35,338 bases of DNA from contig NW_003148771.1 of NCBI RefSeq assembly GCF_000003605.2, positions 277,426 through 312,763 of the forward strand, given 5' to 3'. The stretch comes from Saccoglossus kowalevskii. Lineage: Eukaryota; Hemichordata; Enteropneusta; Harrimaniidae. This document shows positions 2,805 through 34,860 of the stretch, one piece after another (position 1 is the stretch's first letter; every line of letters begins with the position of its first letter). The notes under the pieces were generated by a model. The model made no database searches. It was not told where the DNA came from and saw only the letters and a program-made list of their open reading frames with translations. A program made the translations under genes and the position numbers.

Positions 2805-5234
2805 TCAAATTTGACACACATGGCTTTCCTGTGATGATGTATTTACCAGTGTGCCCTCTAAGCCAATTTGACACACATGGCTTCCCTGTGATGGTGTATT
2901 ACCAGTGTGCCCTCTGAGCCAATTTGACACACATGGCTTTACTGTGATGGTGTATTACCAGTGAGCCCTCTGAGCCAATTTGACACACATGGCTTCCCTG
3001 TGATGGTGTATTACCAGTGTGCCCTGTAAGCCAATTGACACACATGGCTTAACTGTGATGGTGTATTACCAGTGTGCCCTGTAAGCCAATTTGACAAACA
3101 TGGCTTCCCTGTGATGCTGTATTACCAGTGTGCTCTCTAAGCCAATTTGACAAACATGGCTTCCCTGTGATGGTGTATTACCAGTGTGCCCCATAAGCCA
3201 ATTGACACACATGGCTTCCCTGTGATGGTGTATTACCAGTGTGCCCTGTAAGCCAATTGACACACATGGCTTCCCTGTAAGCCAATTGACACACATGGCT
3301 TCCCTGTCATGGTGTATTACCAGTATGCCCTGTAAGCCAATCTGACACACACGGCTTCCCTGTGATGGTGTATACCAGTGTGCCCTCTAAGCCAATTTGA
3401 CACTGGGATTCCATGTGATGGTGTATAATCAGTGTGCTCTCAAAGCCAATCTGACACAGGGATTCCCTGTGATGGTGTATTACCAGTGTGCCCTCTGTGC
3501 CAATTTGACACTGGGATTCCCTGTGATGGTGTATAACCAGTGTGCTCTCTAAGCCAATTTGACACTGGGATTCCCCGTGATGGTGTATTACCAGTGTGCT
3601 CTCTAAGCCAATTTGACACTGGGATTCCCTGTGATGGTGTATAACCAGTGAGCCCTGTAAGCCAATTTGACACTGGGATTCCCTGTGATGGTGTATAACC
3701 AGTGTGCCCTCTAAGCCAATTTGACACTGGGATTCCCTGTGATGGTGTATAACCAGTGTGCCCTCTAAGCCAATTTGACACTGGGATTCCCTGTGATGGT
3801 GTATAACCAGTGAGCCCTCTAAGCCAATTTGACACTGGGATTCCCTGTGATTGTGTATAACCAGTGTGCCCTCTAAGCCAATTTGACACTGGGATTCCCT
3901 GTGATGGTGTATAACCAGTGAGCCCTCTAAGCCAATTTGACACACAGGGCTACTCTGTGATGGTGTATTACCAGTGTGCCCTCTAAGCCAATTTGACACA
4001 CATGGCTTCCCTGTGATGGTGTATAACCAGTGAGCCCTCTAAGCCAATTTGACACTGGGATTCCCTGTGATGGTGTAATACCAGTGTGCCCTGTAAGCCA
4101 ATTTGACACTGGGATTCCCTGTGATGGTGTAATACCAGTGTGGCCTGTAAGCCAATCTGACACACATGGCTTCTCTGTGATGGTGCATTACCAGTGTGCC
4201 CTGTAAGCCAATCTGACACACATGGCCTCCACTTGATGGTGTATACCAGTGTGCCCTCTAAGCCAATTTGACACTGGGATTCCCTGTGATGGTGTATTAC
4301 CAGTGTGCCCTCTAAGCCAATTTGACACTGGGATTCCCTGTGATGGTGTATTACCAGTGTGCCCTCTAAGCCAATTTGACACTGGGATTCCCTGTGATGG
4401 TGTATTACCAGTGTTCCCTCTAAGCCAGTTTGACACTGGGATTCCCTGTGATGATGTATAACCAGTGTGCTCTCTAAGCCAATTTGACACACACGGCTTC
4501 CCTGTGATGGTGTATTACCAGTGTGCTCTCTAAGCCAATTTGACACACAGGGCTTCCCTGTGATGGTGTATACCAGTGAGCCCTCTAAGCCAATTTGACA
4601 CTGGGATTCCCTGTGATGGTGTATTACCAGTGTGCCCTGTAAGCCAATTTGACACACATGGCTTCCCTGTGATGGTGTATTACCAGTGTGCCCTGTAAAC
4701 CAATTTGACACACATGGCTTCCCTGTGATGGTGTATAACCAGTGTGCCCTCTAAGCCAATTTGACACTGGGATTCCCTGTGATGGTGTATACCAGTGAGC
4801 CCTCTAAGCCAATTTGACACTGGGATTCCCTGTGATGGTGTATACCAGTGAGCCCTCTAAGCCAATTTGGCACACATGGCTTCCCTGTGATGGTGTATAC
4901 CAGTGAGCCCTCTAAGCCAATTTTACACTGGGATTCCCTGTGATGGTGTATACCAGTGAGCCCTCTAAGCCAATTTGACACACATGGCTTCCCTGTGATG
5001 GTGTATAACCAGTGTGCCCTGTAAGCCAATTTGACACACATGGCTTCCCTGTGATGGTGTATAACCAGTGAGCCCTGTAAGCCAATTTGACACACACGGC
5101 TTCCCTGTGATGGTGTATAACCAGTGTGCCCTCTAAGCCAATTTGACACTGGGATTCCCTGTGATGGTGTATACCAGTGTGCCCTCTAATCCAATTTGAC
5201 AAACATGGCTTTACTGTGACGGTGTATAACCAGT
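2805..5234. repeat. Large minisatellite, about 44 units of 53-56 bp, two unit types
   Basis: Units read GTGCCCTCTAAGCCAATTTG, then either ACACTGGGATTCC (type A, about 54 bp) or ACACACATGGCTTCC (type B, about 56 bp), then CTGTGATGGTGTATAACCAG. Type B dominates both ends. Type A forms uninterrupted runs in the core, for example about 3400-3930 and 4260-4470. Small length changes come from TATAACC/TATTACC/TATACC. Because 54 is divisible by 3, type A runs hold long minus-strand frames with an 18-residue period (SQCQIGLEGTLVIHHHRE). No start context, splice sites or protein family supports expression. Confidence 0.95.
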
Positions 5235-7407: not shown

Positions 7408-8570
7408 TATTGTTCAAAGTAAGTTGTATGATCTACCATACATTTAACACAGTATTTGGTTTACATGCGCTTCTAATTGAACAATAATTTGTGACATACT
7501 TTAGTTGATTAATTGTTTTAAATTCAGTTTTAATTGAAACAATCAAATGTATTACATTTAAAAACTTAACTCAAAGTAAAACCAAATTGTGTTTTTTGAT
7601 ATTCACAGCCCTGGTTGGACTTTTATCCATTTGAACTACGAAGTCAACTTTTGTCAGCATTCACAAAACTAAACCTAAACCTTGCCCATGGGCGATGTTT
7701 CAAATAGTGGGCGATGTTTTGGTCCACACATTGCCTGACTGAACATTTTTACAGACCCCAATTTTCCCGTCCGAAAGCATTAAAACTTCATTAAAACCAA
7801 TGCTGTATACGAATTGTTGTTGCGTATTATGACTCGTTAAAATACATTTCACTTACGTTTATTACACTCGAATAAAGTCTAAGCTTGAAAAGAATGTTAT
7901 TTACGAAGTTTAAAATATCCAAGCCTTCCTGGTTCGAGCCTCTTGGTTGTTATCATTAATGTTTAATCTTTGTCTGTATCGCATTCCAGACAAAAAGTCG
8001 GTAAACAAGAAATGGGCAAACTAAAATGTCTCCTGCGTTTTACATGTGACATGATTATTAAAAAACACAGAGTTAAGCGGTCATGTACGTTCTATAAAGC
8101 TAACCTTGTACACATAATCTTGTACTGACGTGTTTTTTGTCCAAAAAAGACGTTCCCTTTCAGTTAACCCCCAGTTAACTCTTCGCGTTCATGGTATTTG
8201 TGAGAGTTGAAAGATTTTTTGAACACATGACAAGTAACTATATTGATTTGCGTCAAGCTGGATGGCCCGAATTTAAATATCAGTGCATGAACTCTGGAGG
8301 TCACTGCCCAATGCCGCACGTAATTCAAACGCATGGTTATTATAGTTCAGTCGAAATGTACGTGAATATTGCGATCGAAGTGCACTGTCCAGAGTTTATT
8401 ATATTATAGTAAAATTTATGGTATGGTTTATATTACATGTTCACTTCATTTTGAATAAATAAATCATCATTGGAACATAGATGAATCACAAGTATTTAAA
8501 ATATTTTCTTGACTTTCCGTAGATACCCGACTACTATCATTTTAATGATTTAATGCGCCCATGTTTATGT
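7408..8570. other. Non-coding stretch, nothing recognised
   Basis: No supported gene. The 72-codon open frame at 8191-8409 has no recognisable family. An isolated B-box-like GGTTCGAGCC at 7931-7940 lacks an A box. Confidence 0.5.
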
Positions 8571-8830
8571 TTGTGTAATTATTACGAATGCAACACATTA
8601 TCAAGTCGGTAATATTGAAATATTCACAGACCCAATACCCCAGGTCAGTATCCTAACAATAGTGAAAATTATCTTGAGTTTGCGTAATTATCATGAAAGC
8701 AATACATTTAATACAAAGTTGAAATATTCTGAGCTGATACAATATATAAACAAATTTGCGTAATTAGAAGTAAACGACGTTGATATATTCAAAGCCAGTA
8801 CAGAGTTGCATACAAGTTGCGTAATTACTG
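8571..8830. repeat. Degenerate tandem repeat carrying TTTGCGTAATTA
   Basis: The motif TTTGCGTAATTA or a close variant occurs at about 8569, 8679, 8755 and 8816. Each copy is followed at a variable distance by an AATATTC-like stretch (GAAATATTCACAG, GAAATATTCTGAG, GATATATTCAAAG). Spacing shrinks from about 108 to 76 to 61 bp, which suggests an old decayed tandem repeat. Confidence 0.6.
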
Positions 8831-9134
8831 TACCGTCGGATATAATAACAGTTTTACTAGATCGACACGCGGACCACAAAAGAAAAAGGTTGCTAAGGTA
8901 ATGCCAGTTCAGCACGTGACTTGGGGTCAAACTTCGGTCAACACACACTTGATGCCAGCATCGCCGTGCAGCAAGTTTCGCAAAGTACTTGAAGTTCAAT
9001 TGCGTCCCAAAATGATGTCGCTGATCACTCAGTTGTCGCAGCGTGTGTTGTCATGTCCATGATGCACCCAGTTTCAACTTTGACTTGCTTTTCCTTCTTC
9101 GTGCATGTTCTTGTTCACGTAAAATGCGACCTCT
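8831..9134. other. Non-coding stretch, nothing recognised
   Basis: Overlapping small open frames (8817-9062, 9043-9369) have no recognisable domain. CpG content is somewhat higher than in the surroundings. Confidence 0.4.
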
Positions 9135-9177
9135 CACCAATCACAGTCCCTCTATCATAGAGGGACTGTGCACCAAT
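9135..9177. mobile_element. 29-bp palindromic insertion 1 with 7-bp direct repeats
   Basis: The 29 bp at 9142-9170 form a perfect palindrome with 14-bp arms (CACAGTCCCTCTAT / ATAGAGGGACTGTG) and one central base. They are flanked by a perfect 7-bp direct repeat CACCAAT at 9135-9141 and 9171-9177. The layout equals that at 12135-12177. It is best read as a tiny foldback insertion with a 7-bp target duplication; no autonomous partner is visible. Confidence 0.65.
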
Positions 9178-9306
9178 GATTTAAAACACTTTGAATTTAT
9201 ACTTTGCATGATTATATTTGGTCAACGCGAAACATTATTTTTTCTGGACCATTTTTATCAACGCAGGGTTATTTTTTCAGACAAGATGGGCCTCGTAATA
9301 TCTGCC

Positions 9307-9377
9307 AAAAGATTGCCCGGGCGATCTTTTGGTCCACAATTTTCTTTAAAAAAATCGAATCCTCCATAAGATCGCCC
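9307..9377. repeat. GC-rich palindrome plus a third inverted arm
   Basis: Positions 9307-9330 are a near-perfect 24-bp palindrome, AAAAGATTGCCC / GGGCGATCTTTT. A further arm AAGATCGCCC at 9368-9377 is the inverse of 9319-9328, so two alternative hairpins can form. Function unknown. Confidence 0.6.
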
Positions 9378-10139
9378 AGGGCGGGGTATCAGCCGAATCC
9401 GGTAATTGTAGCAAATAGGAAAGATAATTTGGTCCAGTATTATTAGAAAAAATGATAGAAAATTGCATAATAATTGGTAATGTGTTTGGCTGGCAAGAAA
9501 AACTATGATACACAAACAATTAACATGGATTCATGGTATATGCATGTCTTGTTCCACCTATTATTGTGCCTGATGAATTCATGTAGTAAAAATGTTTTTA
9601 TCGGGGCATGAACTGAAATAGTTGGATCCCCCCAGGACGACCTTAAATAACAAATACTGCAGCTGTGCTTGGTTCCGCTGCTTGATAATGTTTAAGTCAG
9701 CTTTGAATAAAAACTATAATATTGAGTTGGTCAGTAGACTGTAGAAACACTGTCAGTACACCAGGTGTAGTAAAAATGGCAGTATTTGACAGGATTGATG
9801 AGTATTATCCATTATGATATTGCTGCACTTTTAGTTTTATGTTTCAATTAAGTTTCTATTTTTGTGTTAAGTGCTTGTGACACAGTATTCCCCTGCAATA
9901 TGCATGTATTGAATTAATAATGTCTCCAAATAAAAATATTTTAGTCAGTAAATATTTTTATTGTTAAACATGTCTTACGTTGAAATATTTTCACTATTTG
10001 CATTGCATCATGGGAATATGGTGAAAGAGCAGACAGTTGTGTCAAGCAAAACAGCAAACTCCAAATCTAATTTGTCCTATATTCTATCGAATAAACAGAA
10101 AGGCTGACATACATTATGGTAGATTTTTATCTTTCCCAG
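9378..10139. other. Non-coding stretch, nothing recognised
   Basis: AT-rich, with no supported exon, RNA gene or element boundary. Confidence 0.5.
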
Positions 10140-10329
10140 AATTGTTCGAATGTTTTTACTGTAAAAAACGGACGAGCTCAAACTCCATACTTGCATAATA
10201 TCGAACAGATGCATTTGTGTCACCATCAAATCCAAAATGGCTGACTGGCAGTCATTTTGTTTAAATGAATGCAGTTCTTTAAAGCTGTATTTCATACATG
10301 CCCGAACCAATCAAGTTTAAACTTCACAC
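10140..10329. repeat. Interspersed repeat fragment related to 32230-32400
   Basis: The order AAATGGCTGACTGGCAGTCA, a TTTAATGAATGCAGTT stretch, ATACATGCCCGAACC and ACTTCACACATAT is paralleled at about 32230-32340 by AAATGACTCACTGGTAGCCA, TTTAATGAATGCTGTT, a GCTGGGCTGATC stretch and ACTTTACACATACAT. This marks a diverged dispersed repeat. The 77-codon minus-strand open frame at 10077-10310 overlaps it and is not a gene. Confidence 0.55.
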
Positions 10330-10531
10330 ATATATTAATTATTCATTGGGTTTTAATTTTGCTTATTTCGCTGACTGAAAAATGCGCTGAATTAAAACCC
10401 AGTGAATATTTCAAATTTAGCATACAAACATTATCTAATTAATAAAACCATGAATTTAAAACCCACTGAATATGCCTGAAATGATAAATCAGCAAAATTT
10501 AAACCCAGTGAAAATTAGTCATTTTACAGTA
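10330..10531 (-). mobile_element. Family 2 MITE-like element, most complete copy
   Basis: The inverse phrases TTCATTGGGTTTTAATTTTG and AAATTTAAACCCAGTG lie at opposite ends. Internal AAAACCCAGTGAATATT and TTTAAAACCCACTGAATAT add further inverted sub-repeats. The right end is ATTTTACAGTA. The same internal order is seen at 13689 and 15210 as two halves split by an insertion. No coding capacity. Confidence 0.7.
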
Positions 10532-11740
10532 TATATCTCTATAATACAAATAGGAACTATGCATGACTTATTTTCAGATTTTTTTAATTTCATCAACCTG
10601 ATTTGTAGTTAGGATTAACTAGCATAAATTTTCGGGTACAGACATTTTAGTAGCTCTGTCTGCTCTTGAGCTTATAACTTCCTAACCTCAATTTACCTAA
10701 CAAATCAGTCTCCTTGTCTTGGAGAGCAACAGATTACCTTGGGATGCCTGCAGCGTACCCGCAACATGGTCTTATGGGAGATAAGCTTAAGGCTTTAGAA
10801 GCTACATTCAATATTTACATTTGTATTAGAATAAATCCTAATAAATAAATAAATGCACCATTTTTTACTGTCATTGCACTTTCATTTTGTTAACGGTTAA
10901 TAAACATTTATTGTGTTTGCCCTGCCCCTTCAAATCCAAAGAAGAAGTTGTAACAGTGTGTCCCCATGTTTCATAAGGGTAACACATGTTTCATTTAGGT
11001 AACGCAGTAATCTATTTTTACTTTCAAGCTAGAAGGAAATGGAAATGTAGGTAGGTGAGACCCAAATTAATGGAGAGCCAGTGTCTGTTCACATGTACAC
11101 AAGACTTCATCAACAGAGTGGAGCTGTTCATATAACTGATTGTTCTTCATTTCATTTCAGCTTCTTCTTAAAAACTGTCAGGTGTATTCGTTTCATTCTC
11201 ACCACAAATGTACCTTGGACAGTTCCCACTCAGATTTGCTTATTTTGTAATAATACCTTTAATTCTCTAATTTTATCGAATATTTTGTCAATTTTGGTAA
11301 AAAAATAATATTATTTTCAACTTCTTCTTTAAATTGGCTAGCTCAGTTCAATACTTAATTGTTTTATGTCACCTTGCATGGGCCTCTGATTAAGGGTAAG
11401 TTTATTTTTTTAATTTCACTGAAAATATTTGTAATTTTTTTTTAAAAAACTATCTGTCTAACTACACAGCGGAGCTATCTCAGCCGAGAGACTGCTTTTT
11501 TTTTGTGTTAGCATTAGTGTAGTATAAGAGTCAGTAATAGTCCTGTCATAAGGAATGCCTTTTTATTTACAAAAGTCTCAAGTGCAATCAATACTTTTAA
11601 GATTATTTGTGTTAGGATTTGGGGTTAGGATTCTGTACATTTCAAGGATTTTGGTTACGTTTGACCATACATATTTGTAGTTGGGGGGGTTTAAAACATT
11701 GTTAAAATAATAATTATTCCAGCATTCAATATAAATAAAC
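10532..11740. other. Non-coding stretch with a (TAAA)n-type tail
   Basis: Near 10838-10855 the string AATCCTAATAAATAAATAAA resembles a short-tandem tail. A similar string ends at about 17410, so both may be ends of one retroposon family. I could not find target duplications. Nothing else recognised. Confidence 0.4.
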
Positions 11741-11843
11741 ATAACGAAAAAACTTATCAGAAATCAGTGAAAATAAATTCCATACAAAACGCCCAATAAG
11801 TCATTTCAGCGAAAATTAATTCCAGCTAAAATATTTTTCAGTA
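11741..11843 (-). mobile_element. Family 1 MITE-like element, half copy b (reverse)
   Basis: Only the end with CAGTGAAAATAAATTCCATA, CATTTCAGCGAAAATTAATT and TTTTTCAGTA is clearly preserved. On the other strand this matches the left half of copies a and c. The other half is lost or too diverged to see. Confidence 0.65.
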
Positions 11844-12134
11844 TTTTAATAATGCCCACCCAGTAAGTCATAAAACTTCTGTCACCGGCGTTGTTTTTCG
11901 GAGCAGAAGGCAGGTGATAATCATTAATCTATCTCCATTGCAGAGGTTCATTCTTACTTAAATGTACATTTTCCAACTACTTAAATTGTTACCTTCCCAC
12001 GCAATGTTGTTCAATTGCATGCCTAATACATTGTACAAACACTTGTCTGGTGCTGGTACTACTTTTGACATGAAGTGGCTTTAAGTTTAATTAGTCTAGA
12101 AAAAACCACAAATGTCAAAGTTAACTTCGGTTAC
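11844..12134. other. Non-coding stretch, nothing recognised
   Basis: No supported feature. Confidence 0.5.
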
Positions 12135-12177
12135 CTTTCACCATAGACCCAGCTCCAGTAGAGGTCTATGCTTTCAC
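12135..12177. mobile_element. 29-bp palindromic insertion 2 with 7-bp direct repeats
   Basis: The 29 bp at 12142-12170 begin CATAGACC and end GGTCTATG (8-bp perfect inverted ends) and contain a TAGAGG string shared with insertion 1. A perfect 7-bp direct repeat CTTTCAC flanks them at 12135-12141 and 12171-12177. Insert length, CA...TG ends and target-duplication length match the 9142-9170 insertion, although the two differ in sequence. Confidence 0.65.
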
Positions 12178-13026
12178 TAATAAATTATTTGTTATAAATG
12201 TTATCAAATATTTTGCTCAAGACCAGTAGGCAATGGAAATGTTTACCAATTTGGTCAAAAATTAACAAAGAGATGATACTTAAAACTTTGCAAAACCAAC
12301 ATTTTTGTTGGAAAAATGATGGTGAGAGAATTCAAATTGTCGTAATCATTGCAGACAGGGAGATTTTGTTGGATTAATACATCCTCAAAATAAATGTACA
12401 TTCTATGTATATACCACAAAAAGAGCTGAACTACAAGAAGCGGATAAATAAAACTGATCTTGTCATTTGAATCAAAGAATTACTCGGATTAATAAAATTT
12501 TGGTTACGGCATAGAACGTAAATATGACCTGCTGAACCAATTTTTTTATGCTGTCTAGAATTGGTGGATTAACATCATTCCCGATTTCCCTAAATCGTAA
12601 GATTATATTGTAATCAGTAGATACACTGCTATAAGAGCAATTAGTTTAATGGTATGTTTCCGATTAAAAGTCCATCCAGTCAGGTTGCTGTTAATCCGTT
12701 AAATTGATGATGTCACAGTCGGTGATTGACGACTAGATTATAGATAATGATGCACTAGATATTGAGAATGAAAACTACATACATGTAGTTGTCCTGAACA
12801 CATTTTTAATTCAAAATTACTGCATTGGTGACATTTTGTAAGTATATTGTATACAGGTCTTGATTTGGGAATAAATATCAAATGTTTATGTGACAAAAGT
12901 TTCTTTAAAATTCATAACATTACTAATTGTTCTATTTGACTCCTGTAAGGGAAGCAATTAACTTTTTCATCACCAGACTTTCTGTCCCAAATTTTTCTGC
13001 ATTTTTTTTACTCCTGTGTGCGAAGC
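12178..13026. other. Non-coding stretch, nothing recognised
   Basis: AT-rich, with no supported exon or repeat boundary. Confidence 0.5.
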
Positions 13027-13081: not shown

Positions 13082-13688
13082 TATCTGTTCCACTGATATC
13101 TCATGAACCACATATCAGTTTTTGATGAAATTTTGTGCATAGATGCACTGGGCCAATGCGCAGATTTGATGAGTTTTTGGTGAAAATCCGTGCATACTAA
13201 TTACCTAATTTGCATGATAATTAGTTAATTTTTAGCTGTTCCATGGCTGTTCCACTGATATCTAAAGAACTGCTCATTGGATTTTGATGAAACTTGGTTC
13301 ATAGATGCTCTGAACTAATGTGCTGATTCAATTAGCTTAGATAAATATCTGTGCATATTAATTACCTAATTTGCATAATAAATACATTTTTCGAGTAGTA
13401 ATCATTACATTTCAGTGAAACTTGGTGCATAGATATTCAAGGACTACCGGGGGGTATGCAGAGATTGATTGTTTCGGGGTAAATATTTGTGCATATTAAT
13501 CACCTAATTTGCATAACATCTCAAGTAATATCTAAATAACTCATTTCAATGAAACTTGGTGCATAGCTGCTCTAGGAAAATGTAAAAACCTGACTAATTT
13601 AGGGTTAAAATCTGTTCATATTAATTCCCTAATCACATTTCAATTAAACTTGGTACATAGGTGAGCTGTTACATTGCGCAGATCTTAA
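13081..13688. repeat. Decayed tandem or dispersed repeat with AAACTTGGTGCATAG units
   Basis: About five diverged units follow the order: ATATCT with AAGAAC-like sequence, TGATGAAACTTGGTGCATAG, ATGCTCT, an AATGCGCAGATT-like stretch, GTGCATATTAATTACCTAAT, then TTGCATAA. Units begin near 13097, 13256, 13400, 13515 and 13630. A further piece (TCTGTTCATATTAATTACTT) is found at 15228, on the other side of the nested insertions. Confidence 0.75.
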
Positions 13689-13778
13689 TACTGTAAAAAA
13701 ACAAATTTTCACTGGGTTTAAATTTCGCTGATTTTCCATTTCAGTCATATTCAGAGGGTTTTAAATTCACGGTTTTAT
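13689..13778 (+). mobile_element. Family 2 MITE-like element, left half (interrupted)
   Basis: Starts TACTGTAAA and runs through TTTTCACTGGGTTTAAATTT and TTTTAAATTCACGGTTTTAT, matching one half of the 10330-10531 copy in inverse. The match stops at 13778; the other half resumes at about 15096. It is embedded in the AAACTTGGT repeat. Confidence 0.6.
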
Positions 13779-15095
13779 CATTACCTTGCCCGTACCATCA
13801 AAGATGGAAGGGAAAGGTATATTAAGGGAAAAATTTTGTCCGGCATTGTCGTCGTCGTTGTCGTCGTCGTCGTTAATAATTGTTATTGTGTGCATGATAA
13901 CTTTACTAATTCTATTCCAAACTTCATCAAACTTGGTCACCTTGTTCATCAGTATAAAGNNNNNNNNNNNNNNNNNNNNNNNNNNNNNNNNNNNNNNNNN
14001 NNNNNNNNNNNNNNNNNNNNNNNNNNNNNNNNNNNNNNNNNNNNNNNNNNNNNNNNNNNNNNNNNNNNNNNNNNNNNNNNNNNNNNNNNNNNNNNNNNNN
14101 NNNNNNNNNNNNNNNNNNNNNNNNNNNNNNNNNNNNNNNNNNNNNNNNNNNNNNNNNNNNNNNNNNNNNNNNNNNNNNNNNNNNNNNNNNNNNNNNNNNN
14201 NNNNNNNNNNNNNNNNNNNNNNNNNNNNNNNNNNNNNNNNNNNNNNNNNNNNNNNNNNNNNNNNNNNNNNNNNNNNNNNNNNNNNNNNNNNNNNNNNNNN
14301 NNNNNNNNNNNNNNNNNNNNNNNNNNNNNNNNNNNNNNNNNNNNNNNNNNNNNNNNNNNNNNNNNNNNNNNNNNNNNNNNNNNNNNNNNNNNNNNNNNNN
14401 NNNNNNNNNNNNNNNNNNNNNNNNNNNNNNNNNNNNNNNNNNNNNNNNNNNNNNNNNNNNNNNNNNNNNNNNNNNNNNNNNNNNNNNNNNNNNNNNNNNN
14501 NNNNNNNNNNNNNNNNNNNNNNNNNNNNNNNNNNNNNNNNNNNNNNNNNNNNNNNNNNNNNNNNNNNNNNNNNATTTGCATACAAAGCAGAGCTTGCAAC
14601 ATGATAGCTATTCATAAAGGGTGTTTTTTTTTTTTACTTTTCATATAATACAGTAGTCACACAATGAGGCAGTTCATATTTGTTTCAGTGAATCATTAAT
14701 TTTTGACAGACACCTGTACAAAATACTTGGACAAAAGCCAGCTAAGATTTTCTGTTATCTTGCATGTTTTATGAATCTATTCACGTCTAAATGCAGCACT
14801 TTTTTTTTGCAATGAGGCATTTGTTTTTATACTAAAATATCTGAATTACTTTGAATAAAGCTGGAAATTATGTCCCTTAAAATAATTAAACAAATAAGGC
14901 ACAAATGTTTTTGTAAGATATTTACATCTTTAAAGGACATTCAGTAGACTGATTCCCCACTGTTAGTTCAACCCCAAAACTTTTTTGTATTCAAAATTAA
15001 TTATGACAATGTATATTTATATTGAAACAAACTATGTTAAAGGGAATTATATTATATAACAAAGGGCAAGGTCACCAGAGTTCAACTATGTTTTA
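13779..15095. mobile_element. Probable insertion splitting the family 2 element, contains the N gap
   Basis: The two halves of a family 2 element (13689-13778 and 15096-15210) are separated by this block. Near its edges lie the inverse strings ACCTTGCCC (13783-13791) and GGGCAAGGT (about 15064-15072), which could be terminal inverted repeats. It includes a (GTC)n run at 13848-13873 and an AACTTGGTCACC motif of the same type as the surrounding repeats. The interior cannot be read because of the gap, and the exact edges are uncertain. Confidence 0.4.
13960..14573. other. Assembly gap, 614 N
   Basis: A run of undetermined bases. Open frames that cross it are artefacts. Confidence 1.
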
Positions 15096-15210
15096 GATAA
15101 TGTGTTCTATGCTAAATTTTACATATTCACTGGGTTTTAATTTAGCGCATTTTCCAGTCAGCGAAATAAGCTAAATTAAAACCTAGTGAATAATTAACCC
15201 CTTTACAGTA
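15096..15210 (+). mobile_element. Family 2 MITE-like element, right half
   Basis: Runs TTAGATAATGTG, ATTCACTGGGTTTTAATTTA, AAATTAAAACCTAGTGAATA and ends CTTTACAGTA. It continues the half that starts at 13689. Directly after it the AAACTTGGT-type repeat resumes (TCTGTTCATATTAATTACTT). Confidence 0.6.
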
Positions 15211-16725
15211 TTAGTTTTACACTCAAATCTGTTCATATTAATTACTTGATTTGCATAATTAGTTTTTCAGCTTTTTCAATAATATCTTAAGTACAGGTAA
15301 TTTTGAATTAATTTTTAATATTTCTCCAACACTCTCAGCACACAAAAGCTCTTTCTGAGCTTTCTTTGACTTCTTATATGCTTCAATATTTCTGGAAATT
15401 AACCCTAATTTAGGAGCCAACAGACATAATTTGAGTCAATTTTCAGTTTTTTCTCAAAAAATTTGACTATTTTTGTTCCAATCTTCTGAAGGAAAATGCA
15501 GACTATAAACAGGACTATTTTGTGAATTTGTGATGAAAAGATGGACCTAGTGGTACACTGTATATCTTTTTCCATATGACTGTCCTTGGTACCGTAGTAT
15601 TTGGTGTTTACACATCATTTGCTGAAATCATCCATGGATTGTCAAAATAAAGAAAAAAATAAGGAAAAAAGCTGTCATCTTAATCAGCATTTTTTGAAAA
15701 TGTATGGAATATCCTTGTTTATTTTGTAAAGATGTCAAAGTTTATGTAGATGATTAAAAATTGAGTTGATATAAAATGATGTTTATCAAGAGAACCAGCA
15801 AAAGGTGTCATTAAGGCAAAGTAATAATGGCATAATCAGTGTGATTTGTTGATAAGATTCAGATCTAAATCTCATTATGGTAATCAAATCATCAAGACCT
15901 TGAATATCAACATGCGTGACTTTAAAATGTTTTCATATTTTTGCTCCATAAAACAAAATGTAGACAATATATGAATCCAATGAAACACAGCCCATATTAA
16001 CACTTCTGTAGATATCGCTCATTTTTGCTCTTTGTGTAGACATTCATCAGGTGTTGTGTTCAGAATATAAAAAGTCAAACTTATTTGGCAGAAAAATAAG
16101 TTCCATGTAATATGACTGACTTTGTAATGCTTTCACCTGTTTTGTACTTTGCATTATGGGAGAAGATATTTTGCATTAAGCGACAAGTTACAACTAACTT
16201 AAAATGTATGGTAATTTGCATCATATTCCACCAGTTAAATCACAGAATGACGGGCATACAATATACTAAAATGTGTCACGACTGATTATCACTTCTTGCA
16301 TGCTTGCAATCTTTCCAGCAAAACAAGGTGCACTGAGTATTGTAAAAACTCAAAGTGTAAGAGACACATTGACCTTCTGTGAATAGACTGTGATGCAGAC
16401 ATATTGAAAGTTATTTGGAATAATATATTGGCATTCCACGTGGCTTAGACTTGGAAATAATTGGAAGCAGCAGTCAGAAAACAGACCTTTCTGGTGTCAT
16501 TACTTCAAGATAGCTTTGAAATCACGATAATTAAACTTGACTTTGGCCAGCTGTGTTTAGTCAACATGTAGGTAGCACTGCTCTTACTCTAATTGGTATG
16601 TGACTTGACAGAAGATTTCCCAGGAGGAAGTAATGTCTTAATCATTAATTTAAGTTCACCCAAAGACTGACTTGTATGGTGATAAAAAACAACTGGTGTA
16701 CAATCTCTATATATTGGGCAACAAA
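15211..16725. other. Non-coding stretch, nothing recognised beyond a repeat remnant
   Basis: About 15220-15300 is a remnant of the repeat at 13081-13688. The rest shows no exon, RNA gene or clear element. Confidence 0.5.
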
Positions 16726-16937
16726 TACTGTAAAATACTTTATTTTAGCTGGAATTAATTTTCGCTAAAAAGACTTTTAGGGTGTTTTGTATGGAATTTA
16801 TTTTTACTTTTTTTTGGCAAGTTGAATGTAAAATATAGGAAAAAGATATATTCGCTGGATTTTATTTTCACTACATCATTCCCTCAGCGAAAATAGCAAA
16901 AAATCAATTCCAAGTGAAAATTAAGTATTTTACAGTA
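16726..16937 (+). mobile_element. Family 1 MITE-like element, copy c
   Basis: Starts TACTGTAAAATACTTTATTT and ends AAGTATTTTACAGTA. It has the same internal order and orientation as copy a. Its terminal TA is shared with the next element, which begins TACTGTAAATG. Confidence 0.8.
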
Positions 16938-17103
16938 CTGTAAATGCAGTAATTATGGCTGGTATTTAATTTCCATATTTTGAACATCAAAGAATTAATA
17001 TCTTTTAGTAATTTTTACATATGGATGAATAATTTAGCCGATTTTGTTTATCAGAAAAAATATAGAAATTAAAACGCAGTGAATAATTAATGCATTTACA
17101 TTA
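16936..17103. mobile_element. Family 2-like element, degenerate, abutting copy c
   Basis: Begins TACTGTAAATGCAGTAATTA and ends with AATTAAAACGCAGTGAATAA and GCATTTACATTA, resembling the ends of family 2. The interior is diverged. Confidence 0.5.
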
Positions 17104-20997: not shown

Positions 20998-21205
20998 TAC
21001 TGTAGAATACTTTATTTTCGCTTGGAATTTATTTTCGCTATTTTCGCTGAAGGGATGATTCCGTGAAAATAAAATCCAGCGAATGTATTTTTTTTCCTAT
21101 ATTTCACATTAAACTCATCAAAAATCAAAATAAATTTCATACAAAACACCTAAAAAGCCTTTTCAACGAAAATTAATTCCAGCGAAAATAAAGTATTCCA
21201 CAATA
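20998..21205 (-). mobile_element. Family 1 MITE-like element, copy d (reverse)
   Basis: Starts TACTGTAGAATACTTTATTT and ends AAAGTATTCCACAATA. The internal order is inverted relative to copies a and c: TTCGCTGAAGGGATGATTCC comes first and GCGAAAATTAATTCCAG-like sequence last. The 69-codon open frame at 20849-21058 runs into it and is not a gene. Confidence 0.8.
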
Positions 21206-21386
21206 CCACTCACTGCAAAACCATGCATTTTCACTGGCATTTGATATCAGTATTTTAAAATTTTGAGCAATTTTACTTTTAAGTTCACAAACTTAGTAGG
21301 AAAACTTTGAGTTCTATTGTTCTTGTTTTATTTATCTGCAAAAACAGCGAAGTTAAAAACCAGTGATAATTAAATGTGGTTACTGT
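21206..21386. mobile_element. Family 2-like element, degenerate, abutting copy d
   Basis: Phrases CATTTTCACTGGCATTTGAT, then AAAAACAGCGAAGTTAAAAA, then CCAGTGATAATTAAATG and GGTTACTGTA resemble a decayed family 2 copy. It directly follows a family 1 copy, as at 16936. Confidence 0.4.
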
Positions 21387-21540: not shown

Positions 21541-21714
21541 TTTCGTAGATATATATTTATATATATTTATATATATAAATAAAAAATTTATATATATAAA
21601 TAATAAAAAAAATTAAAAATAATAAAAATATATATAAATAATAAATATATATATAAATATATTTATATATATATTTATTTATATATATATTTATATATAT
21701 TTCGTAGATATATA
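21541..21714. repeat. TA-rich low-complexity block with 15-bp flanking direct repeats
   Basis: Composed of TATATATTTATATA-type words in both orientations, so it can fold extensively. The identical string TTTCGTAGATATATA begins it (21541-21555) and ends it (21700-21714). Confidence 0.9.
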
Positions 21715-24881: not shown

Positions 24882-25380
24882 TCATATTCACTTTGCTCAT
24901 AGTATTTGTTTTAGATTCCATATTCACATTGCTTATGATATTCAAATTAGTTGCCAATTATTCCCATTTGTTGCCATATTCAGTGATTATGGTATTCACA
25001 ATGGATGCCATATTCACATGAATTTCTTTATTCACTTTGCTCATGGTATTCATTTTAGTTTCCATATTCACATTGCTCATGATATTCAAATTAGTTGCAA
25101 TTATTCCCCTTTGTTGCCATATTCATTGATTATGGTATTCACAATGGATGCCATATTCACATGAATTTCTTTATTCACTTTGCTCATGGTATTCATTTTA
25201 GTTTCCATATTCACATTGCTCATGATATTCAAATTAGTTGCCAATTATTCCCCTTTGTTGCCATATTCAGTGATTATGGTATTCATATTGGCTGCCATAT
25301 TCACATGAATTTACCTATTCACTTTGCTCATGGTATTCGTTTTAGTTTCCATATTGCCGAATATCCACATCAGTTACCAT
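24882..25380. repeat. 144-bp tandem repeat with internal subrepeats
   Basis: The phrase TTGCCATATTCAGTGATTAT or a variant starts at 24971, 25114 and 25258, a period of 143-144 bp. Partial units lie on both sides, giving about 3.4 copies. Each unit contains diverged subunits built on CATATTCACATTGCTCATGA. The period is divisible by 3, which keeps the His/Ile-rich frame 25095-25394 open; this is not evidence of a gene. Confidence 0.9.
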
Positions 25381-28855: not shown

Positions 28856-30660
28856 GTAAGTATGACGCAGCCCTTCTTTTAAAATTTATGCTTATTATAG
28901 GTTTCACACCATAATTATAATTTGTGTCAAGGAGCTGGGTTATGTACCGACAAATGTAAAACAACTTTTTGCAAGAGATGACATGCTTGTATTTCAAACT
29001 GTTATATTTAATATGATACCAGAATATGAAAGCCTTAGTTTTGTGAGTAGAATTTTAGCAATAATCAGCTGGTTTTGAATTGGCTTGTACATTTAGAATG
29101 AGCAGTCAGCTTGGTGAACTTTTCTAATTTTGCTAATGTAGTTGAATCAGCTTCATTATTGTGACTTTCAGCACTGTGATGATGCTTTTTATTACATGTA
29201 TTTGAATTTATGAACTAGAAAACCACTCTTTTAATTTTGTAACATTTTGGGTACTTGTCTCTTTGGTTCTATGCAGGCTTTCAGCCAGCCATCCATCTGT
29301 CATTATTGACAGGCACTATTGACACTGTATATCTTAAGCATTTCGCACAAGGAGTGCTAGGAGTTTGTTCAAAACTTCGAATGTTTTTAAATCAATCGTC
29401 GGTTGGCTCATATTTTATGCATATAATAAACTGTTTCAGTGATTTCTTTCCTAAATAATGATAAATGAAACTTAGAAGCATTGTAGAAATAAACTAGCTG
29501 GCCCTAAAAATGCGTAAATCTGCAATCTGTTATCACTACTAGTTCCTGCTTAGGAAGGCATTCTACACGTTATTTTATTGCATTCTGACATTCTATTTCA
29601 AGCTAGTTGAAACCTAAAATTACGCAGGAAATTTCAAACTTCGAACACAAATTTTATTATTGTTATTATGTCTTAATTTCTGCTGTTCGAAAGATTGAAT
29701 TATGTATAACATTAATATTTCACTCACAAAACAATATCTCACTAAAATACGTGATTAAAAGGCAACTTAAACTGTAAAACGAAGAATCTAGTTCCATGTA
29801 CTTGTGTAAAAAAGCGACGGATCGCTATTTGAGCCAAAATATGACAGACTTATGCTAAGACAGACTTCCTGTGACAGCACAATAAGACAGGCACTCTATG
29901 TTTTAGACATGTACAAAATGTGAAAGGCAAATTATTGACAAACCTTTCACATTTTTAATTTATCTGTAAATTACAAAATAACCATAGATAATCAACAACA
30001 AAAACAAGTCTATGGCTACAGACTAGCACCTCTGTTTTTTTCATCTCAATAAAATTTTTAGATTAGCATTTTCAATTTTTTGCTTATATCCCTGGTTTTT
30101 TGTGGAAATAGTTCCGCTTTTCAAATTTGTATACTTTTGTCGATGGTGGATGACAGGAGTACAAGACTTGAGGTTATTTTTCATGCTCAAATAAAAGCAG
30201 TTTTAGGTGATGAATTGGACAATGTCTAAAATGATCATAACAAAATAGTTACTCACCAACTCCTTTCTTAAATTTTAAAAGTTAGCTTATAGAAAATAGC
30301 CACTTATTCAACTCAAGACGTCAAATCAACTAAAAAAAAAAAATCACATACATGGCCGTTATTATCCTGTTATTGCATATTGAATGTAAGAATTGACCTC
30401 AATTCACTTAAGCTCAGATAACACTTTAGATCCATTCCAATTTACCATACAAAATATACTTACAATGCTATCCAATGTGTCTATTTGCACTGTTCCCCAT
30501 TGTTGTATAAAGTAATAGTTATTTTTTCTCAATTATGAAATAAAGTGATAGAATTTATCAATTTTGACACGTATTATAGATGAAAACTGCTAAATAGCTA
30601 TATTTCAAGTGATATCATTGTTACTTGTCACTGTATGTGTGCGAGTACGCTGAAATGATG

Positions 30661-30814
30661 TTCTGGCTGTTTTGTAGGGAGTTTATTTTCACTGATTGTT
30701 GGTGAGTTGAATGTAAAATATAGGAAAGAATGTATATTCGCTGGATTTTATTTTCACAGAATCTTTCCTTCATCAAAAAAAAAACAAAAAGCGAAAATAA
30801 AGGATTTTACAGTA
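30661..30814 (+). mobile_element. Family 1 MITE-like element, 5'-truncated copy e
   Basis: Retains TTTATTTTCACTG, GTAAAATATAGGAAAGAATG, ATTCGCTGGATTTTATTTTC and the end GCGAAAATAAAGGATTTTAC-AGTA, in the orientation of copies a and c. The left inverted end is missing. Confidence 0.7.
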
Positions 30815-32039
30815 CATTTAGCCTAATAATTTTTTAAGAAGGATTTTTAATAGAAAAATAAACATGAACTAATTTGAATCATCACACCTTTAAATGAATA
30901 CTATTAGTAGGCAATTTCATCATAATCTTGACCTTTTAATAGAAATTACCGGTAATTTCTTTGTGACTGCAGTGTATGTTACCTAAACATGTTTAGCTCA
31001 GATAGTTGCAATAATTTAGATCAAATTTGAGACATACATGTAGGTATCATGAGATAATGTGCAGTCATGTTATATTTTCAGAGCCATGACCATGTAAATT
31101 AAGTAGCTAATTTGCATATTGCCACATTTCAGCCTGTGTAAGCAAAATCTCAAAAACTTGAGAACTGATTTTGATTAGATTTGCTATATATTGATGCTGG
31201 ACGTCTGTCGACTAATGATCCTAAACTTCTAATGCCATTGCTCCTTCACTGACTATGAATGATTATAGTATTTATAAAAATAGTTATACATTAAAAAAAA
31301 ATTTCAAGTTATGCGTGTGACAGGTTCATTGTTTTTTCGAGAGATTTAAAAAGAATTTTCAGTTTTCATGGAAAATCATAAAATTATTCACAATTTCCTA
31401 ACAAAAATAAAAAAAAACATGTGTCAATTTCAAGAAATTTTTTGCCTTGCTATTTTCAAACATGCTTTTGCCTGTCTATAATTAGTGTACCGGTAAATTA
31501 GTATTGTTATATTTTAACACATTGTCATTCATTGCATCAACAAACGTATACCAATATTTATAGTTTTTGGTGCTTCCATAGCAATACAAGCATGTGTCAA
31601 AATGTTGAATAATTGACTTCATGTCTGCGTTGCAAATTAGCGTCATCATGTTGTCAGATTTGATCGTAATTACTTCTTACTTTGCCGCTGTTATCGCGCA
31701 CAGCGACTCACTCCCTGGTGGCTTTTCATTATTAGTAAACTGATAACCCTTTTATTGTGCCATTCTAACACCTTGTGTTCTGTTAAAGCTGTCAGATGTA
31801 TTCTATTGAAAGCCCTTGGCATGTAGAGTAATGTGTGTCTCACACATGTACAAAATGAACCAATTACATTTACGGTATTTACAGGATATCTGGGTCACAT
31901 GCTTATTCCCAATAGCTGAATATTATCAAGTATCTTTGGGATTAAGAAGAAAACACTGACATGCAGCATGCCCCATTGCGACCATTGGGTTTAATCTTTC
32001 CGAATTTATAGGCTGTTCCCGTCCAGACAGGGACTTTTA

Positions 32040-34553: not shown

Positions 34554-34711
34554 ATATTTTTTCCCAAGTGTCTGATTCAAATGGCACACTGGTGTGGAAT
34601 AAATTAGATGCGTATTTAAAAGAAGTATTGTCATTGCCAGGAGCTGTCTTTGAAGGTCCATCATTTGGTTATAATGAAACAGCTGCCAGATCATGTTTTG
34701 GATATGAAGCT
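34554..34711 (+). CDS. Dyb: Dystrobrevin, coding exon 5 (gene continues past the window)
   Basis: 158 bp encoding residues 156-208: [20 protein letters not shown], then [20 protein letters not shown], then [13 protein letters not shown]. This matches the family's YIFSMISDSSG...[28 protein letters not shown] segment, the start of the second EF-hand region. SDSNG looks like a partial EF loop. The acceptor ends at 34553 (phase 1 in) and the donor GTGAGT starts at 34712 (phase 0 out). Downstream exons for the remaining EF-hand, the ZZ zinc finger, the syntrophin-binding part and the coiled coils are not in the window. Confidence 0.96.
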
Positions 34712-34860
34712 GTGAGTAATAGACATGTTGTTTGCTTTTAACCAATCAGATGTGAGTAGTAGATATGTTGTTTGCTTTCAACCAATCAGCTTTGAGTAAT
34801 AGACATGTTATTTGCTTTCAACCAATCAGATGTGAGTAGTAGACATGTTGATCGTTTCAT
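34711..34860 (+). repeat. 40-bp tandem repeat that includes the exon 5 splice donor
   Basis: Units of exactly 40 bp start at 34711, 34751, 34791 and, partly, 34831. Each has (T)GTGAGTAATAGACATGTTG, then TTTGCTTTCAACCAATCAGA. The first unit begins on the last base of exon 5, so its GTGAGT is the real donor. GTGAGT recurs at 34752 and 34832; the third unit has TTGAGT instead. Confidence 0.95.

Follow-up and report, generated by a model that had tools for sequence, protein, structure and literature searches.

Two 29-bp inserts between 7-bp target duplications in Saccoglossus kowalevskii DNA as candidate excision footprints of a P-superfamily transposon

What process leaves a 29-bp insert with inverted ends between two perfect copies of a 7-bp target, and does so twice within 3 kb? 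The question is raised by a 35,338-nucleotide stretch of Saccoglossus kowalevskii DNA (contig NW_003148771.1, positions 277,426 to 312,763, forward strand), here called the window and numbered from its first letter. Direct repeats of fixed length mark transposase-type insertion, and both inserts begin with CA and end with TG. From comparison with published excision junctions, we consider it somewhat probable that both are excision footprints of a cut-and-paste transposon of the P superfamily, of the P element, Galileo or THAP9 kind. An insert consisting only of two inverted ends would be accounted for because such a transposase cuts well inside the element ends, after which end joining seals the gap.

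The first site (9135-9177) reads CACCAAT + CACAGTCCCTCTATCATAGAGGGACTGTG + CACCAAT, by direct reading and by script. Its insert, palindrome 1, comprises 29 bp with perfect 14-bp arms around a single central base. The second site (12135-12177), established in the same two ways, reads CTTTCAC + CATAGACCCAGCTCCAGTAGAGGTCTATG + CTTTCAC; its insert, segment 2, is also 29 bp long, with perfect arms of 8 bp and 13 bases between them. At both sites, the script placed the start of the arms at the first base of the insert. Both pairs of target copies are intact and perfect over 7 bp, which falls within the 7-8 bp that is a feature of P-superfamily footprints. Segment 2 may have formed on excision from the joining of two imperfect transposon ends, whether or not filler bases were added. 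The six parts of the two sites are as follows.

9135..9141, plus strand: left copy of the 7-bp target duplication, CACCAAT (direct reading, script)
9142..9170, no strand assigned: palindrome 1, 29 bp, arms of 14 bp, interpreted as a post-excision join of two transposon ends (script, single-stranded DNA fold, comparison with published P junctions)
9171..9177, plus strand: right copy, CACCAAT (direct reading, script)
12135..12141, plus strand: left copy of the 7-bp target duplication, CTTTCAC (direct reading, script)
12142..12170, no strand assigned: segment 2, 29 bp, ends CATAGACC and GGTCTATG with 13 bases between (script, single-stranded DNA fold)
12171..12177, plus strand: right copy, CTTTCAC (direct reading, script)

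These coordinates, the two lengths of 29 bp and the 7-bp repeats agree exactly with the original prediction, which had been made from the letters of the window. As single-stranded DNA, palindrome 1 forms a near-perfect hairpin (-13.1 kcal/mol, z -7.03), equalled by 0/200 shuffles, and segment 2 folds more weakly (-4.9 kcal/mol, z -3.45), equalled by 1/200. The two inserts had been described as different sequences. This holds for the cores but only in part for the outer eight arm bases, CACAGTCC and CATAGACC, which are identical at six positions (P = 0.007 for random 8-mers of window composition). The agreement suggests related parent elements, although other P-type ends also start with CA, such as that of Drosophila P (CATGATG; PMC2895639) and that of zebrafish Pdre2 (CATACCTGTCAAC; PMC10983969).

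Both sites look like real insertion-type structures, beyond chance. With the minimum arm length set to 8, the repeat to 7 bp and the length to 20-60 bp, they were the sole matches in the window. Under the same settings, simulation with an order-2 Markov model, which takes no account of local repeats, yielded 34 matches in 4000 windows and two per window in 0/4000. Relaxing the search to arms of at least 7, repeats of at least 5 bp and lengths of 18-79 gave 23 matches, comprising 21 in one AT-rich repeat (21574-21694) and the two sites; with arms of 5 or 6, further matches appeared within tandem repeats at 3028-5046 and 25001-25224. A search for CA...TG ends at 22-47 bp with at least 8 of 10 arm bases matching returned the two sites only, whether 0, 1 or 2 repeat mismatches were allowed. 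The corresponding means in 300 simulated windows were 0.013, 0.16 and 1.23, so that this search has no power at two mismatches. A further script looked for direct repeats of 6-9 bp that carry inverted ends and are separated by up to 6 kb. At 7 bp there were 6 matches against a mean of 10.0 in 60 simulated windows, and the two sites ranked best by far; 8 bp gave 4 matches and 9 bp gave 3, the best of them AT-rich, and 6 bp gave 96, of which the best 12 were inspected.

Low complexity or chance as the source of both sites is disfavoured by these scripts and simulations. That chance, or a local template switch making a palindrome between short direct repeats, produced the pair is extremely improbable. 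Single matches do occur in simulation, as the 34 attest, whereas no simulated window held two, and arm-pattern searches show no close source for the arms elsewhere in the window that a template switch could have copied. The earlier view of the two as insertion-type structures with 7-bp duplications is supported, beyond chance, by the 4000-window simulation and, for exact repeats, by the search with CA...TG ends.

Excision of the Drosophila P element provides the comparison on which the P-type assignment is based. P transposase places its 5' cut within the inverted repeat, 17 bp in (PMC7776569), and excision leaves both target copies at the donor site, each next to a 3' tail of 17 nt derived from the element (PMC2895639). 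Our junction counts cover Table 1 of PMC2895639 and leave out its Tables 2 and 3. By our count of that table, 44 of 66 isolates of P{w-a} excision keep both 8-bp target copies. Among these 44, a denominator outside which the 22 copy-losing isolates fall, a perfect 30-bp CA...TG palindrome occurs in 14 and a 32-bp palindrome in five; the insert measures 26-34 bp in 21, and its terminal inverted run reaches at least 8 bp in 37. The Table 1 junctions extend over 7-44 bp with a mode of 30, and both window inserts (29 bp, CA...TG, arms of 14 and 8) agree with them in form. By this comparison, palindrome 1 (arms of 14 bp) very closely resembles the commonest two-copy class in form, and the 8-bp arms of segment 2 would fit P junctions given imperfect ends or filler bases. 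What the Drosophila scars share with the window sites is intact target copies around a short palindrome of outer terminal-repeat ends, CA...TG, of about 30 bp. They differ in their 8-bp target copies (7 here), in end sequence and in having been made in Rad51-less flies. Unlike the assayed junctions, the window sites would be genomic relics.

Transferred to the window, the P pathway would run in three steps. A transposon with ends like CAYAGWCC... would insert and duplicate 7 bp, CACCAAT at one site and CTTTCAC at the other. By analogy with Drosophila P, transposase would then cut the outer 3' ends and, on the other strand, at a point ~17 nt into the terminal repeat, so that both target copies would stay, each bearing a 3' overhang made of the outer ~17 nt of the element. 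Trimming of the overhangs, or annealing at a few bases, would allow end joining to fuse them into a short palindrome. The arms fit in form as the putative ends of a real element. A model in which 17-nt overhangs meet at a unique microhomology was tried for segment 2 and dropped as evidence, because under this model any 29-bp insert overlaps by 5. The resulting scar would hardly be movable again, because 29 is less than 34, twice the 17-nt stagger; for a transposase cutting at 17 nt it would probably be an immobile, dead relic.

The same lengths bear on the main rival, which we regard as unlikely: one or more families of ultra-short elements some 29 bp long, two terminal repeats without an interior, inserted by a P- or hAT-like transposase with a 7-bp duplication. 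Such elements would share what the two inserts share, namely the length of 29, the CA...TG ends, the 7-bp duplication and the related arm ends, and the occurrence of two within 3 kb and of target copies without a mismatch also favours them. Against this, the two inserts have different cores, and searches of the window at the mismatch limits applied turned up neither core a second time. By established DNA mechanics, a duplex of only 29 bp lacks the flexibility to bend round until its ends pair, and the insert is shorter than two 17-nt overhangs, making movement as such mechanically unlikely. Very short miniature inverted-repeat transposable elements (MITEs) resemble the inserts in having inverted repeats and a target duplication; the inserts differ from them in showing no repeated copies in the window and in having, at 29 bp, hardly any room for an interior.

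The original prediction had offered two origins, a very small foldback class of mobile element or scars of a larger element. The form of the P junctions favours the larger-element scars, and the foldback class is not needed. Nor is the proposed unknown enzyme with a 7-bp stagger, because the P superfamily, with its cut 17 nt inside the ends in Drosophila P and its 7- or 8-bp duplications, yields such a structure in 14/66 published isolates, a count tied for the highest of any junction class.

A duplication of 7 bp is, by comparison within the superfamily, compatible with a P-type enzyme, because Galileo, a member, duplicates 7 bp as the rule (PMC2775673, PMC4168063), with three 8-bp exceptions in D. 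willistoni (PMC4168063). Beyond this likeness, Galileo differs in its long foldback-like terminal repeats and in its GTANTAC target consensus, the window targets being CACCAAT and CTTTCAC. The zebrafish Pdre2/THAP9 P-like elements resemble the window arms in their short, 13-bp terminal repeats starting CAT, and differ in end sequence and in the length of the duplication. Families of hAT elements with 7-bp duplications serve as an example query in a Repbase paper (PMC4455052), and duplication length alone therefore cannot identify the superfamily. Retention of element ends in the scar is the stronger pointer.

Several other sources were considered on this basis. A remnant of a long terminal repeat (LTR) retrotransposon was rejected: LTR ends are TG...CA, and the window ends are CA...TG. 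Footprints of the hAT element Ds keep no element ends (17 events, one atypical site; PMC1978519), and a hAT footprint was rejected, as the window keeps 29 bp between perfect target copies. The scar of Sleeping Beauty consists of its own 3-nt overhangs (PMC7827188), and excision of the mosquito Mutator-like element Muta1, in a yeast assay with target copies, is mostly precise (PMC5225508). Among the published hAT, mariner and Mutator-like footprints compared, none retains 8-14 bp of each end. Dada elements make 6-7-bp duplications and target small RNA genes, and Dada-U6 and Dada-U1 are described without terminal inverted repeats (PMC3706591). Dada was rejected, the window arms starting at the first base; as a test of its targets, a tRNA search of the 35-kb window and an Rfam search of 8400-12900 both came back empty. 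Footprints of some other, perhaps undescribed, terminal-inverted-repeat superfamily that cuts far inward from its ends and duplicates 7 bp of target are distinctly unlikely. The lack of inverted repeats in Dada-U6 and Dada-U1, the lack of Dada's RNA gene targets around the sites and the loss of ends from Ds footprints speak against this origin, and the literature compared described no second enzyme that cuts so deep into the element. Extreme internal deletion of transposons through failed gap repair, leaving two ends, is very unlikely. Interrupted gap repair is frequent after P excision in the Drosophila assay (PMC2895639), yet deletions of this kind would have no need to stop ~14-15 bp from each end, twice.

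Several points weigh against P-type excision as the origin of the inserts. Two 29-bp scars with different cores only 3 kb apart would, if typical, imply many scars genome-wide, a density that better suits a numerous family of tiny elements. The perfect arms of segment 2 span only 8 bp, for which either filler bases or imperfect ends have to be assumed. Of the 66 isolates in Table 1 of PMC2895639, 22 lose part or the whole of a target copy; among these 22, a class of 14 isolates, tied with the 30-bp palindrome, keeps about 8 end bases and loses part of the target copy. The flies of that assay are without Rad51, so that only end joining works, and flies that have Rad51 initially favour gap repair. 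Both Drosophila P (PMC7776569) and zebrafish Pdre2 (PMC10983969) duplicate 8 bp, not 7, and the zebrafish enzyme, assayed in fly cells, leaves larger flanking deletions (PMC10983969). A parent element with these ends was not found in the window by arm patterns or by the script pairing repeats up to 6 kb apart; the best other arm-pattern match, at 13562-13574, has one mismatch in 11 specified bases.

Searches of other collections returned little. Three palindrome patterns had 0 matches in viral contigs and in bacterial and archaeal genome contigs, the wrong organisms, in which absence says little; a host repeat pattern likewise had 0 matches in viral contigs. All these zeros are as expected for animal DNA. 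Arm strings of 12-13 bases (four window arms and two guessed variants) led, in full-text literature, to papers unrelated by title. Among the matches listed, the literature on shortest or tiny MITEs all looked unrelated, and no paper reported P-type palindrome scars in a genome sequence, judged by title and the start of the abstract.

The two inserts are most likely scars of a kind already described, lying ~22 kb before a dystrobrevin exon in animal DNA that appears not to code for protein. An exon-like stretch at ~34556-34705 on the plus strand matches EF-hand_3 (E = 1.1e-13) and PDB dystrobrevin chains (best E = 3.9e-14), in a domain search that covered this one reading frame, and the window probably lies in the region of an animal dystrobrevin gene.

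The remainder of the window is repeat-rich. A large minisatellite at 2808-5234 has 54-56-bp units with a TGTGATGGTGTATTACCAGTGTGC core, ~44 copies by two overlapping rows, and parts of it are free of stop codons in several reading frames. Further minisatellites lie at 3-537 (19-bp units), 24885-25355 (144-bp) and 34711-34850 (40-bp). At 13085-13671, about four diverged unit copies with a TTAATTACCTAATTTGCATA motif are spaced 125-161 bp apart and end ~290 bp before an assembly gap (13960-14573). One or two interspersed families of inverted and direct repeats, of the TTTTCGCTGGAATTAATTTTCGCT and AATTAAAACCCAGTGAATA types, have a MITE-like look, with copies up to 94% complementary; they are located as follows.

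1194-1410, 10321-10532, 11750-11833, 13687-13778, 15105-15212, 16724-16976, 20998-21206 and 30648-30815: interspersed repeat copies

The presence of two within 3 kb hints at a type of scar that may often occur yet go unnoticed; in our opinion such scars would be missed because a 29-bp unit lies below the usual size for repeat annotation. It is a doubtful but conceivable prospect that the host genome is rich in ~29-bp palindromes with 7-bp duplications, which would be either transposons smaller than any known so far, mobilised as such by a P-like transposase, or a genome-wide fossil record of P-type excision. If they are such a record, the scars could be read to reconstruct the jumping history of the transposon. 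Should the P-type reading of the two inserts hold, short palindromes between direct repeats would be a type of scar readable from sequence alone, one that shows both P-type excision and the mode of break repair in an animal probably far from flies.
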